A DNA stretch of 64,000 bases from the NCBI RefSeq assembly GCF_002504165.1, contig NZ_CP021404.1:1736001-1800000 (forward strand). The letters run 5' to 3'. A program made the translations under genes and the position numbers. Every line of letters begins with the position of its first letter. Position 1 is the first letter of the stretch. Source of the DNA: Pacificitalea manganoxidans (GTDB lineage Bacteria > Pseudomonadota > Alphaproteobacteria > Rhodobacterales > Rhodobacteraceae). Below the pieces are notes generated by a model. It saw only the letters and a program-made list of their open reading frames with translations. It did no database searches and was not told the origin of the DNA. Shown here in pieces: positions 390 through 31,927 of the stretch.

Positions 390-773
390 TTGAGTCTTGT
401 TTCGCTGAATGTTCCTGACGAGTTGGTTCGGGATCTCAGGATGATCATAGAACGGGGGATCACCCCAGAACGGCGGGCCGACGGAAGTTTTTCTCTATAT
501 GCCGAGAAAGCCCTCGTTGATAAGGTGCGAGGACTAAAGTTCGAGATATTTGCAAATGAACACCCGCCACCCCATTTTCATGTCACCACAGCGGACTGTC
601 GAGCGTCATTCGCTTTGAGCGACGGACGAAAACTTAAGTCCAGCGGCGACACACGTAAACTTGAGAAACAGGTCGCGTGCTATTTCCAAGAAAACAGAAG
701 CAAACTGATTGATTTCTGGAACGGCAGCCGTCCAGAGAATTGCAGCGTTGGACCTTATGTCCAATCTGTATAG
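390..773 (+). CDS. DUF4160-family protein
   Basis: The 127-residue protein carries the family hallmark FANEHPPPHFHV at about residues 51-62, followed by a short beta-rich core (FALSDGRKL) and a helical end. DUF4160 proteins are small and of unknown role; they often sit beside a DUF2442 protein, which is absent here. The start shown is TTG at 390, giving about 45 residues before the core, so the N-terminus is uncertain; an internal ATG at 441 is possible. It stands alone on the plus strand, convergent with the Beta-family operon, in the cargo part of the prophage. Confidence 0.6.
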   Translation: MSLVSLNVPDELVRDLRMIIERGITPERRADGSFSLYAEKALVDKVRGLKFEIFANEHPPPHFHVTTADCRASFALSDGRKLKSSGDTRKLEKQVACYFQENRSKLIDFWNGSRPENCSVGPYVQSV

Positions 774-874
774 CTACCGGCTTACAACCGACGTTCGCGC
801 CGATTAAAACCTGGTGCAGCGCGGCGTCCGTGGCTAGGCGCATTCAATGCGCAGTGCAGCACAGCCAAAGCGGA

Positions 875-1951
875 TCAGTCTTCCCAATCTTCCTCGAAGT
901 CCATGCCACTCAACCCCTGCTGGCCGTAGAATGCCTGCCTGTGAAGATGGATGTTCACTCGTGCTGCGACGTTTTTCTGCGGAGTATCGATCCCGATCTC
1001 CTCGTTGATCGTCGTCTGATAAATCATCTCTTCTCCCCAGACATTTAGAGAACCATCCCAAACACCACTACGCTTTACCAGCTCTTCGGCGGCATCTTCA
1101 AAATCCCACTTTTCATCCTTGTTTCGAACGATGATCCAAGAATTTTCGGTCGGATAGTCGATGCGGTCAAGCGGCCGGTTCGCAAAGCCCCCTGGCTCAC
1201 GGGGCCGAGTGCTACCCCAATCCCCGTAAACTACAGAGGTTCGGTTTGTCTGCCGGCGCAGTTGGTCCACAAGTCGTCGATTATGGAACGGAACTTCTGT
1301 TGCACCAGAGTAGTTCGAGAACAGCTTTGGCATCGACGTGCAGGAAACAACGACTGGGACAGATGCCTCGATAGCCATTAGTCCACCCGCGATGAGGCCA
1401 TCAAACCAAGCAGAAAGCGTGAGCGGATCAAGGGTCCACCCGCCTTCCAAAATGACGAAGAAGTCAGCGGTCCCGCCAGCCGCAAAGGCTGCAACGATCT
1501 CGTCGAAATTATTAGGGAAACGGTCCCGGACAATCCGCATACAGTATTGGCGTCCCAGTCCTTGGAATGCCATGATTTGCTGCCTTATCTCCGCCTCAGA
1601 TTGATCCCGAGACTGAATACAAGGGATCAACTCCTCATGTTCGCTCACGAATTCCACCCAGTTTGAGTAGGCATCAGTAGGATCAAGCAAACGCATCATC
1701 TCTTGCTGAGGGCCACTTTCTGGGTTGGTGAACTGGTAATCGCGATCCAAATCGAGGATGTATTGTCGGTTTGGGAAAGCGCGCCTGACACGGTCAATAG
1801 CTCGTTCCAACGTGCTGGAATTGGCCCATGGAGCAAGGAGGATGCACGGCGTCATCCTGTCCTTCGTCGCACCAGGCAGAAACTCGAGGCCGTTCATTTC
1901 GCTCGCGCGGATCGCCAGCGTCGGCACGTAGTTCTTATTCTTTAGGGCCAT
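875..1951 (-). CDS. Beta-protein family protein (T4 beta-like)
   Basis: This 358-residue soluble protein opens with the pattern YVPTLAIRASEMNGLEFL and then P-C-I-L-L, typical of the Beta_protein family named after a phage T4 protein. No catalytic motif is obvious. It is the last gene of a minus-strand trio, 10 bases after the ImmA/IrrE peptidase gene. Families of this type are commonly seen in mobile elements next to regulators, and their biochemical role is not settled. The family call rests on N-terminal pattern and length, so it is good but not certain. A partner role with the upstream peptidase is inferred from gene order only. Confidence 0.6.
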   Translation of the reverse strand: MALKNKNYVPTLAIRASEMNGLEFLPGATKDRMTPCILLAPWANSSTLERAIDRVRRAFPNRQYILDLDRDYQFTNPESGPQQEMMRLLDPTDAYSNWVEFVSEHEELIPCIQSRDQSEAEIRQQIMAFQGLGRQYCMRIVRDRFPNNFDEIVAAFAAGGTADFFVILEGGWTLDPLTLSAWFDGLIAGGLMAIEASVPVVVSCTSMPKLFSNYSGATEVPFHNRRLVDQLRRQTNRTSVVYGDWGSTRPREPGGFANRPLDRIDYPTENSWIIVRNKDEKWDFEDAAEELVKRSGVWDGSLNVWGEEMIYQTTINEEIGIDTPQKNVAARVNIHLHRQAFYGQQGLSGMDFEEDWED

Positions 1952-1961
1952 TCCAACTCAC

Positions 1962-2474
1962 TCACGCTGATGCGTATGTTGACAGCCTAACCTCCATTGC
2001 AGCTTTGGAAACCCCGAAGCGCGCAGCCAGAGCTTCAATTGTTCGCTCTGTAACCTCACCTCGGAATTCTTCCTGCAAAACCTTCTCTACGAGGTCCAAC
2101 GGCATTACGATGTCTGCAGCCAATCGGTTTGCCTCATATTCAATCCTCTCGGGCGCGCCGGATCGGTACAGGACGTTGTCCCGAATCCCTTCCTCGGAAC
2201 TGTCGATAATATGCCGATGTAACAAATAATGGGAAAGTTCATGGGCGATTGTAAAACGTTGTCGCTCACGGGCCTCATGGCGGTTGACGCGGATCACGTA
2301 ACCGTCATCTTCCTTTGTGATTTGGCCGGAGATTCCGGTCTTCATGCTCGAGACCTTAATCGCGACACCCAGATCCTTCGCTATTTTCCCTAACTTGACG
2401 GGATAGCTCGACAAGTGCGCGACAAGCGTCTCCTTCTCATCGCCTTTGAGAGAACGCAGTTCACGTGAAGTCAT
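1962..2474 (-). CDS. ImmA/IrrE-family zinc metallopeptidase
   Basis: The 170-residue protein contains the zinc-peptidase signature FTIAHELSHYLLHRH (HELSH is the HExxH site) at about residues 74-88, and a further acidic helix with EYEANRLAADIVMP, the downstream element that completes the active site. In this family ImmA cleaves the repressor ImmR of a mobile element, and IrrE cleaves the DdrO repressor, so the usual role is proteolytic derepression. No XRE repressor is encoded beside it here. It lies between a small membrane protein and a Beta-family protein with gaps of 10-18 bases, so the three are probably cotranscribed. Confidence 0.85.
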   Translation of the reverse strand: MTSRELRSLKGDEKETLVAHLSSYPVKLGKIAKDLGVAIKVSSMKTGISGQITKEDDGYVIRVNRHEARERQRFTIAHELSHYLLHRHIIDSSEEGIRDNVLYRSGAPERIEYEANRLAADIVMPLDLVEKVLQEEFRGEVTERTIEALAARFGVSKAAMEVRLSTYASA

Positions 2475-2492
2475 TTCTCACTCCTGCTCCTA

Positions 2493-2900
2493 TTATTCAT
2501 CTTCGTAGTCCTTGCCCTCAAGCTCACCGTTCCCTGTGGCGAAGGCGATTTCTGCAACGCGGCGCTTGATCACTTCATCCGACAGCCGGACCTTGACTAA
2601 CTCTTCAACTCGGTTCTCAGCCCTACGTTCCAACTGCTGGAAGGTGTATGCAGCGACCACGCCGACCCCGATAGCAACGGCAGCTAGGACAACGGTGACA
2701 GCTGTCAGCATGACAGAGACGAAGCTCAGGTAGGTGGGTAGCGAAAATACAGGCTCCTCTTGAGTCCCGGGGATCCCATCGACACGGTCGACGACGCCCA
2801 ACGAGATCAATAGAAAAACCAGTACTCCTCCGCTGGTAAAGGCAGCCATGAGTTTTACGGCTCTCATGCCTCTGGCCGTGCGTCCTGATGCTCCTGCCAT
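2493..2900 (-). CDS. Small two-segment membrane protein
   Basis: The 135-residue protein has two hydrophobic segments at about residues 17-36 and 55-85, then a charged coiled-coil-like tail (QQLERRAENRVEELVKVR) and an acidic end. No family is recognised. It is the first gene of the minus-strand trio with the ImmA/IrrE peptidase and Beta-family protein. A candidate promoter overlaps the ATG at 2900, so the true start may be ATG at 2867 or the message may be leaderless. A membrane anchor or sensor for the peptidase pair is possible but only inferred. Confidence 0.6.
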   Translation of the reverse strand: MAGASGRTARGMRAVKLMAAFTSGGVLVFLLISLGVVDRVDGIPGTQEEPVFSLPTYLSFVSVMLTAVTVVLAAVAIGVGVVAAYTFQQLERRAENRVEELVKVRLSDEVIKRRVAEIAFATGNGELEGKDYEDE

Positions 2901-2926
2901 CTATGTTCTACTTATGTTTCTGTCAA
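2898..2926 (-). promoter_or_regulatory. Candidate sigma-70 promoter of the membrane/ImmA/Beta operon
   Basis: On the minus strand a perfect TTGACA (2926-2921) is followed after 17 bases by TAGATG (2903-2898), a weak -10 that overlaps the first ATG of the operon. No ribosome-binding site precedes that ATG. This argues for a downstream start codon. Confidence 0.35.
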
Positions 2927-3412
2927 TGCGTTTCACTCAACGTGGCATTTACACAGTGATTTGGCCATAGGAACTTCCACATGGTCTGCTCCCGATTACG
3001 TAAACACGAAGAAATGATCGCGACCGTGGAACTGAGAAGCAGGTGCGATGAGAGGACGTTTCAGCCACGAGTTTACTATCGCATGGTAGAGCTAATGACC
3101 TAGCGAGACGTTCGATCTCTCAGGCGTGTCGAGGTAGGAGGTGGGCCAAGCGCGTTCTGCGTCGTTGGTGCTTGCACTACCCCTTGCTCAAAAGGTAGCG
3201 CGTCGAGGTTTCGTTTGTGGGTGGAGCCCATCGAAGCGCCATAGTGACGACCGCGATCTGCCAGGCTAACTTTTTGGTTCCTGCTGGCAGCGAAGTTCCA
3301 CTTCCCAGCCTCTTCATACCGGGCTAAACAGTTGTCGTGCTCCTTGGTTGGCAAAAAAGAGCTGCCGTCATGTCCCGCTTCGCATTGAAACGGCCCCAGC
3401 GACACCTACGGG
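2927..3412. other. Non-coding stretch, no gene supported
   Basis: About 490 bases separate the minus-strand trio from the epimerase gene. A 101-codon frame on the minus strand (3100-3405) has low-complexity, non-protein-like composition and no ribosome-binding site. No tRNA, terminator with a U-tract or attachment-like repeat was found by eye. Confidence 0.5.
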
Positions 3413-4300
3413 CTACACTTGCACCTCATTCCGCCAGCCATGCTCGGGGACAAAGCCCAGAAGCTCACGCGCCTTGTCGATGGCGTAGAAGGTTTCGTTC
3501 TCGCCCATCTCCCGCTTAACCGGTACGTCCGGGTAGAACCGTCGCCGCACCTCGGCGTTGTCGATGCCGACCGACAGGTCCGGATTGGCGACGTTGAACA
3601 CCTGGTATCCGAGCCCATCCGTCTGCAGGCACCGCTCGACCATCTGGCCAAGATCGCGGGCATCGATATAGGCGAAGATATTGCGCCGCCGTAGCGCGGG
3701 ATCTTCGAGATAGGCCGGAAAATCGCGGGCGTATTCATGCGGCTCGATGACATTGTTGATCCGCAGCCCGTAGATATCCGCGCCGCTGCGCGCTTGGAAG
3801 TTGCGCGCGGTGACCTCGTTGGCGACCTTGGACATGGCGTAGCTGTCATGCGGCACGGTAGGATGCTCTTCGTCGACCGGCAGGTAGTCCGGGCGCATTT
3901 CTCCTTGTGCGAAACAGATCCCGTAGGTGGTCTCGGACGAGGCGAAGATCACTTTGGGGATGCCGAGCTTCGTCGCCGCCTCGAGCACGTTGTAGGTCGA
4001 CATGACGTTGACGCGGTATGTCTCGCTGTCAGGCTCGATCAGGATGCGAGGCAAGGCCGCGAAATGCACGACAGCGTCGTAGCGCGGCACTGAGGCGAGA
4101 TCGAGTTCGTCAAGCCCGGCCAGTGCGCTCAGGGCGTTGAATACCTGCCCGCTCTCGGTCAGTTCGATGCGCAAATTGTCCACGCCCGGCAGGTCGAGCG
4201 GCACACGATCAGCGTTGACCACCCGATGCCCGCGTTCAAGCAGGTAGGGGATGACATGGCGCCCGGCCTTGCCGGAGCCACCCGTAAAGAAAATCCGCAT
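3413..4300 (-). CDS. NAD(P)-dependent epimerase/dehydratase (extended SDR)
   Basis: The protein of 295 residues starts MRIFFTGGSGKAGRHV, whose GGSGKAG is the Rossmann glycine motif (GxxGxxG). The catalytic set of extended SDRs is present: a Ser-rich strand (FASSETTYG) and Tyr-x3-Lys in SYAMSKVANE. ATG 4300 was chosen over the longer frame because AGGGGGG lies just before it and the protein begins directly at the Rossmann strand. Such enzymes act on nucleotide sugars or sugar acids in the cytosol; substrate is not readable here. It stands alone between phage cargo and the lysis genes, so it is either prophage cargo or a host gene at a boundary. Confidence 0.85.
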   Translation of the reverse strand: MRIFFTGGSGKAGRHVIPYLLERGHRVVNADRVPLDLPGVDNLRIELTESGQVFNALSALAGLDELDLASVPRYDAVVHFAALPRILIEPDSETYRVNVMSTYNVLEAATKLGIPKVIFASSETTYGICFAQGEMRPDYLPVDEEHPTVPHDSYAMSKVANEVTARNFQARSGADIYGLRINNVIEPHEYARDFPAYLEDPALRRRNIFAYIDARDLGQMVERCLQTDGLGYQVFNVANPDLSVGIDNAEVRRRFYPDVPVKREMGENETFYAIDKARELLGFVPEHGWRNEVQV

Positions 4301-4479
4301 TTGCCCCCCTAAGTGCTGCATATGCGCGCAGAATACAGAGCTGTCCTGTCGAAACAAGCGCAAGGGCCCGGACTATAACGCAGGGGCGTTGGCGCAGAAG
4401 CCGCACCGGAATTTGGGCGTCCCGCAGTAAGCGACCGCTTCCTGCCCTGCCCTCATCCTAAGCCCGCAATATGAACCCT

Positions 4480-31850: not shown

Positions 31851-31927
31851 TGGTAGGCCCGGCAGGACTTGAACCCGCAACCAAAGCGTTATGAGCGCTC
31901 TGCTCTAACCAATTGAGCTACAGGCCC
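31851..31927 (-). tRNA. tRNA-Ile2 (anticodon CAT, lysidine type)
   Basis: The 77-base cloverleaf on the minus strand has a 7-bp acceptor (GGGCCTG with CGGGCCT), D arm GCTC/GAGC, anticodon arm GAGCG-CTCATAA-CGCTT, T arm GCGGG-TTCAAGT-CCTGC, and encoded CCA. Anticodon CAT allows Met or Ile2. C4-G69 and C5-G68 are present, the acceptor pairs recalled as positive determinants for the lysidine enzyme TilS in E. coli, and no initiator features are seen. So it likely becomes k2C34 and reads AUA. Its 3' end faces the prophage, and the T stem has one G-U pair. Confidence 0.85.

Follow-up and report, generated by a model that had tools for sequence, protein, structure and literature searches.

A Mem–M78 peptidase–Beta operon in an alphaproteobacterial prophage, a putative undescribed relative of the anti-phage systems PD-lambda-2 and gop-beta-cII

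In this study, we describe a three-gene operon in a prophage of Pacificitalea manganoxidans that encodes a small membrane protein (here Mem), an M78 (ImmA/IrrE) peptidase and a Beta protein. It has the appearance of an undescribed relative of two anti-phage systems with experimental validation, PD-lambda-2, which contains both Beta and an M78 peptidase, and gop-beta-cII, which contains Beta. On this basis, we propose that it may constitute a mobile, three-component, toxin-antitoxin-like module acting by abortive infection, with Mem as the effector, a reading that we consider evenly balanced between right and wrong. No paper on this gene set was found in the literature searched, a search that left most subscription papers and bioRxiv outside its scope.

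Organization of the Operon in the Prophage

The window is a stretch of 64,000 nucleotides (contig NZ_CP021404.1, positions 1,736,001 to 1,800,000) in which the operon lies on the minus strand (Table 1). Mem and the peptidase gene are separated by 18 bases, the peptidase and Beta genes by 10, confirming the spacing of 10-18 bases given in a preliminary description made from the sequence. The shared promoter postulated there was not recovered: a sigma-70 consensus scan of positions 700-3400 yielded no site upstream of Mem, all six matches falling within genes or in the gap before the peptidase gene, and alphaproteobacterial promoters may deviate from this consensus. The absence of an Xre repressor gene was borne out, as no Xre or HTH repressor adjoins the operon among the window ORFs and their Pfam matches, the neighbors being a DUF4160 gene and an epimerase-like gene. 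The latter, odd cargo for a prophage, separates the operon from the genes for phage lysis.

Table 1. Features of the operon and its neighborhood, and loci with Mem and peptidase genes in the absence of Beta
Feature	Position	Strand	Description
Mem	2493-2900	-	ORF, 135 aa; predicted two-helix membrane protein with a long cytosolic helix and an acidic C-terminal tail
M78 (ImmA/IrrE) zinc peptidase	1962-2474	-	ORF, 170 aa; single domain, motif HELSH
Beta	875-1951	-	ORF, 358 aa; PF14350, predicted TIM barrel, conserved acidic-aromatic tail
Mem-M78 gap	2475-2492	-	Sequence, 18 bases; AGGAG ribosome-binding-like sequence before the peptidase start
DUF4160 gene adjoining the operon	390-773	+	PF13711, 3e-9
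NAD-dependent epimerase/dehydratase (sugar-nucleotide-epimerase-like) gene	about 3416-4303	-	PF01370, 9e-24
Mem-M78 pairs without Beta	L162, L163, L164, L178, L192-L198, L200, L201, L203		Larger stretches L204-L218

A phage-type integrase gene (PF00589, L002 7150-8319) is situated about 8.6 kb from the operon in the direction of the window start, and on the other side follow genes for a GH108 lysozyme, terminase, portal, major head, baseplate and tape-measure proteins. The operon is antisense cargo between the early and late genes of the prophage. The PF14350 match is the only one in the host genome. Beyond the tape-measure gene, a tRNA-Met gene is present at window positions 31851-31927.

Conservation of the Operon as a Mobile Unit

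The co-occurrence of the three genes, suggested in the preliminary description as a check, was surveyed first through the Beta family. A search for PF14350 covered three genome sets, from the order (292 genomes), the class (385) and the phylum (398), and gave matches in 14, 12 and 13 genomes, respectively, with the P. manganoxidans genome counted in all three sets and one other genome common to the class and phylum sets. The matches occupy 43 distinct places; at 32 of them the ORF is 300 aa or longer, and the others are fragments, pieces or contig ends. Directly upstream of 24 of the 32 intact Betas lies an M78 ORF, which is absent beside the other eight. Beta genes apart from the peptidase, which by the preliminary description would refute the module reading if they prevailed, are the minority in this survey. 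Fifteen of the 24 peptidases are single-domain proteins (165-203 aa) and nine are longer fusions with an extra N-terminal part (294-442 aa). All 15 single-domain loci have a membrane-protein ORF upstream, immediately adjacent in 13, at a distance of 219 bases in one and of 1.2 kb in the last (L020); 12 of these ORFs were recognized by the Mem profile and three by hydropathy only. At L037, one Mem helix is in frame and the first helix is in another frame. In the Nioella copy at L020, an ORF that appears transposase-like by eye stands between the Mem and peptidase genes (L020:7779-8870).

A homologue scan of named genomes, a few of them shared with the Pfam survey, used an alignment of 12 three-gene Betas as query and is therefore biased towards the three-gene type. 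With this bias, it revealed 79 Beta loci, 75 of which carry all three genes in order; the other four comprise L119, whose two-helix protein escaped the profile, two loci cut by contig ends and one remnant. With the same query, 12 loci were found on viral contigs, 11 having the three genes in order and the twelfth having only 499 bases of upstream sequence. The window Beta by itself, used as query, recovered no locus from the viral contigs. Most hosts belong to the Alphaproteobacteria and some to the Gammaproteobacteria, and a Neorhizobium plasmid carries the three-gene operon as well. In the Paracoccus and Maritimibacter copies, identity in Beta is about 75%. In the gammaproteobacterium AqS3, a Mem-M78-Beta operon is directly followed in tandem by a second M78-Beta pair (L084:4933-9031). 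Pairwise protein distances over 82 distinct loci correlate at 0.93, 0.91 and 0.90 (maximum of 0.16 in 1000 permutations), which fits inheritance as a unit, common ancestry itself adding to the correlation. Mem-M78-Beta is a conserved mobile unit, its genes co-occurring far beyond chance.

The surroundings of the other operon copies are rich in defence genes. The scan took in two flanking genes on either side at 46 three-gene loci, with 139 of the 179 genes called there by a GC3 rule, and an equal-sized control in which 139 of 194 genes were used, drawn from 20 stretches at hand-picked positions in nine genomes. At E-values up to 1e-10, 74 PADLOC families were matched in the flanks versus four in the control, counts in which families overlap; the flank matches include type IIG restriction, PD-T7-1, reverse-transcriptase and MzaA models. 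Mobility genes also surround the operon, with four Resolvase, three Recombinase and two phage integrase matches in Pfam, none of which occurs among the 25 control families listed.

Properties of the Three Proteins

Beta matches PF14350 over nearly its full length (E-value 1e-71; 242.7 bits versus a cut-off of 27; profile positions 1-341 of 342) and the PADLOC models beta (8.7e-44) and PD-Lambda-2_C (5.4e-6). Its AF2 model, built from 68 sequences (pLDDT 92.7, pTM 0.91), predicts a TIM barrel, with structural matches (Foldseek, VIA-align) to TIM barrels of several families over 190-250 residues, the best at Z 13.0 and many at 11-12; a fold held in common does not by itself indicate function. 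A fold search of BFVD gave one strong match, an uncharacterized Gordonia phage protein, and the Beta profile found no credible relative among PDB sequences. Conservation of at least 85% in the alignment is seen at D67, D69, S203, R225, D244, R263, D265, R276, R331, N333, H335 and Q339, among others. According to the strands listed for the model, several of them occur at the end of a strand, which suggests that Beta carries a binding pocket.

The last ten or so residues of Beta, modeled with low confidence, are acidic. This tail has a net charge of -2 or lower at all 83 three-gene loci, and an acidic tail is also found in both Gop-type Betas and in two orphan Betas of the same tree half (L040, L055). 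In the nine Betas with fused peptidases the tail charge ranges from -2 to +3. The acidic tail is missing at L041, L053 and L054, where a membrane partner and an M78 peptidase are present and the Betas group with the Gop type. Since the Beta of P4 possesses the tail without any peptidase, we infer that the tail faces the membrane partner.

The peptidase has M78 as its only domain above cut-off (PF06114; E-value 3.4e-22; 79 bits versus 22), and the HExxH zinc site is kept in all 130 M78 homologue ORFs, duplicates included. Its best PADLOC match is capP (6.6e-32); PD-Lambda-2_B is matched at 2.4e-7 by the C-terminal part of that profile only (positions 261-372 of 402). An acidic C-terminus is no property of the peptidase, with a net charge of -2 or lower at only one of the 83 three-gene loci. 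Its closest relatives of known structure, by sequence, are CapP (7t5t, 2.7e-6) and IrrE (3dte, 2.8e-5). The peptidases of the CapP/CapH pair, which controls CBASS, and of the PprI(IrrE)/DdrO pair belong to the same family. In contrast to these pairs, the operon peptidase has no HTH partner, a CapH-type repressor as in CapHP/CBASS being absent beside it, and is accompanied by a membrane protein and Beta instead. At 170 aa versus about 290-300 aa in CapP and PprI, it also lacks their extra C-terminal part.

Mem has transmembrane segments at residues 19-37 and 63-81 according to hydropathy and matches no Pfam family above cut-off and no PADLOC family at E-values up to 1. Its AF2 model, of moderate quality (mean pLDDT 71, pTM 0.40), shows helices at 7-33 and 57-105, and exactly two helices are predicted for 77 of 85 distinct Mem homologues, which sit upstream of M78 genes. 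On average the loop of these homologues is negative and their end acidic, and the Mem C-terminus carries a net charge of -2 or lower at 72 of 83 three-gene loci.

To follow Mem independently of Beta, its alignment was searched against the 292 genomes of the order and the 385 of the class. In the order, six matches are strong (E-values up to 4.3e-32), and each of them is a Beta locus. The 19 places in the class comprise six Beta loci, ten Mem-M78 pairs without Beta, one place at a contig end and two that are apparently false. At E-values up to 0.01, the order search gave 33 places with four more such pairs (L162, L163, L164 and L178) and a locus (L166, larger stretch L215) where an M78 gene is accompanied by a hydrophobic ORF missed by the Mem profile; the other 22 have no M78 gene nearby in those retrieved. 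The existence of pairs without Beta implies that Mem and the peptidase form the core pair, with Beta as an addition. The pairs are often found between core genes. Several adjoin ORFs judged transposase-like by eye, and the pair may therefore be a stand-alone toxin-antitoxin-like element or a transposon passenger.

Relation to PD-lambda-2 and gop-beta-cII

The preliminary description stated that Beta proteins have no agreed role, which overlooks both validated systems. No mechanism for Beta proteins was found in the searchable literature. PD-lambda-2 consists of genes for a HigB-like protein (A), a HigA(Xre)-peptidase fusion (B) and a Beta resembling a P4 antitoxin (C); B is toxic alone and neutralized by A, making the peptidase fusion the toxic part, while Beta is dispensable for neutralization and required for defence against lambda vir (PMC9519451). 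The gop-beta-cII system protects against lambda and P1, and Gop is toxic without Beta (PMC9122126).

The operon shares with PD-lambda-2 a three-gene layout in which the M78 peptidase is followed by Beta as the last, third component. Its peptidase is, however, single-domain and preceded by the two-helix Mem, whereas that of PD-lambda-2 is fused to Xre/HigA and preceded by a HigB-like gene; neither the HigB-like gene nor the Xre/HigA fusion occurs in the operon. The Betas with fused peptidases also occupy a different part of the Beta tree. Among eight fused-peptidase loci whose upstream ORFs were read by eye, only L047 appeared to have a HigB-like gene.

With gop-beta-cII, the operon has in common a small membrane-type protein encoded directly 5' of Beta, the grouping of the Betas, the acidic Beta tail and carriage by a phage or satellite. 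The 133-aa P4 Gop, encoded immediately before Beta, combines hydrophobic segments at its N-terminus with a polar tail and resembles Mem in these respects. P4 differs in having no peptidase match and in the gene beyond Beta, a cII gene of the sce7726 family compared with DUF4160 here; in Pmp11, too, a membrane-type protein is paired with Beta and no peptidase match is present in the stretch read. No homology between Mem and Gop was detectable (hhalign probability 0.5%, with a Gop profile of only four sequences, since the P4 Beta as query gave three near-copies only), and the two proteins are linked only by their position, their similar size and layout and the tree of the Betas.

That midpoint-rooted tree comprises 65 chosen rows, namely 46 Betas with Mem and M78, nine with fused peptidases, eight without adjoining M78 and two of Gop type. 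A branch supported at 100/96 places all 46 Mem-M78 rows together with both Gop-type Betas and two orphans on one side (50 rows), and all nine fused-peptidase Betas with six Betas without M78 on the other (15 rows). A membrane partner accompanies 48 of the 50 rows, and none was seen beside the two orphans, L040 and L055. The Gop-type pair joins near L041, L053 and L054, through long branches. The operon Beta groups, according to this phylogeny, with the Gop-Beta of P4 and not with the fused-peptidase Betas. The operon falls outside PD-lambda-2 and gop-beta-cII as these are defined, and most likely works like them.

Proposed Mechanism and Alternatives

Within the sensor-protease-effector scheme put forward in the preliminary description, we propose Mem, and not Beta, as the effector. 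As a predicted two-helix protein of the inner membrane and the putative counterpart of P4 Gop, Mem would damage the membrane when activated. The Beta barrel would restrain it, possibly through the acidic-aromatic tail, and probably reads the state of infection. The M78 peptidase would be the switch: upon a phage cue it would cut a partner, by which Mem is freed or activated, and the infected cell would stop growing before phage release. By analogy with IrrE and CapP, single-stranded DNA is a candidate for this cue: it activates CapP and PprI(IrrE) (PMC10904395), and among proteins of known structure these two come closest to the operon peptidase in sequence. This reading is favored by the conserved gene order and correlated distances, the membrane partners of the single-domain peptidases, the grouping with Gop-type Betas, the acidic Beta tail, the defence-rich flanks and the prophage context, and weakly by the decayed loci. 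Against it speak the lack of Mem-Gop homology, the toxin assignment in PD-lambda-2, the tail-less Betas of L041, L053 and L054 and the eight of 32 intact Betas without M78. The pairs without Beta do so as well: Beta cannot be required to restrain Mem everywhere, and the notion that Mem needs Beta is weakened.

Given these pairs, Mem and the peptidase may balance each other, as in an alternative that transfers the logic of PD-lambda-2 to the operon. The peptidase would then be the toxic effector, Mem would replace the HigB-like neutralizer as an anchor or sensor restraining it, and Beta, needed in PD-lambda-2 for defence only, would bring phage specificity. The toxicity of PD-lambda-2 B, its neutralization by A and the invariant HExxH site favor this alternative. 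The operon peptidase, though, is devoid of an Xre part, and its Beta belongs with Gop-Beta. In P4 and Pmp11 the peptidase cannot be the toxin, as none was matched in the stretch read. Altogether, we deem a peptidase toxin unlikely.

An addiction module that stabilizes a prophage or plasmid as a selfish toxin-antitoxin element, without direct anti-phage activity, would explain the prophage, plasmid and recombinase-associated contexts and the transposase-like neighbors of the Mem-M78 pairs. It would not account for the defence-rich flanks or for the part of Beta in two validated anti-phage systems, and we find it improbable. The same two observations make a role in phage competition, one of the two proposed in the preliminary description, likely. 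The other, a regulatory module inducing the prophage, we reject as the main reading and regard as very improbable: ImmA-type peptidases do cleave repressors coded nearby and the operon resides in a prophage, but no Xre repressor adjoins it, such a module would leave Mem and Beta without a task, and its recurrence outside this phage, on a plasmid and across numerous unrelated genomes, makes a dedicated repressor target unlikely.

Returning to Mem as effector, a broader view, doubtful as a whole, is that Mem-M78-Beta would be an undescribed, widespread defence system joining the two known ones. Beta would be a conserved TIM-barrel regulator whose toxin partners are exchangeable: P4 would use a membrane toxin alone, the operon a membrane toxin plus a peptidase, and PD-lambda-2 HigB with an Xre-peptidase. 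The tail would act as a plug on the membrane toxin, released by the peptidase once infection is sensed. The operon is compact, and the jobs of Beta, peptidase and effector could be separated by single-gene removals. It suggests how Beta, poorly understood and common to both known systems, is used, and its recognition would bring into defence annotation those loci that current models register only as loose beta or capP matches.

Decayed Loci

Three loci have a broken Beta. Two of them combine it with a broken Mem and an intact peptidase, a weak pattern that we rejected as proof of toxin-antitoxin logic since only these two fit. At the third, L092, the Mem frame is open and lacks only an ATG, GTG or TTG start, which counts against Mem as the effector; the Mem frame is open at L078, too. 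At L129 (6001-9865), the last third of a broken Beta is located about 2.7 kb downstream, with a truncated Mem upstream and the peptidase intact.
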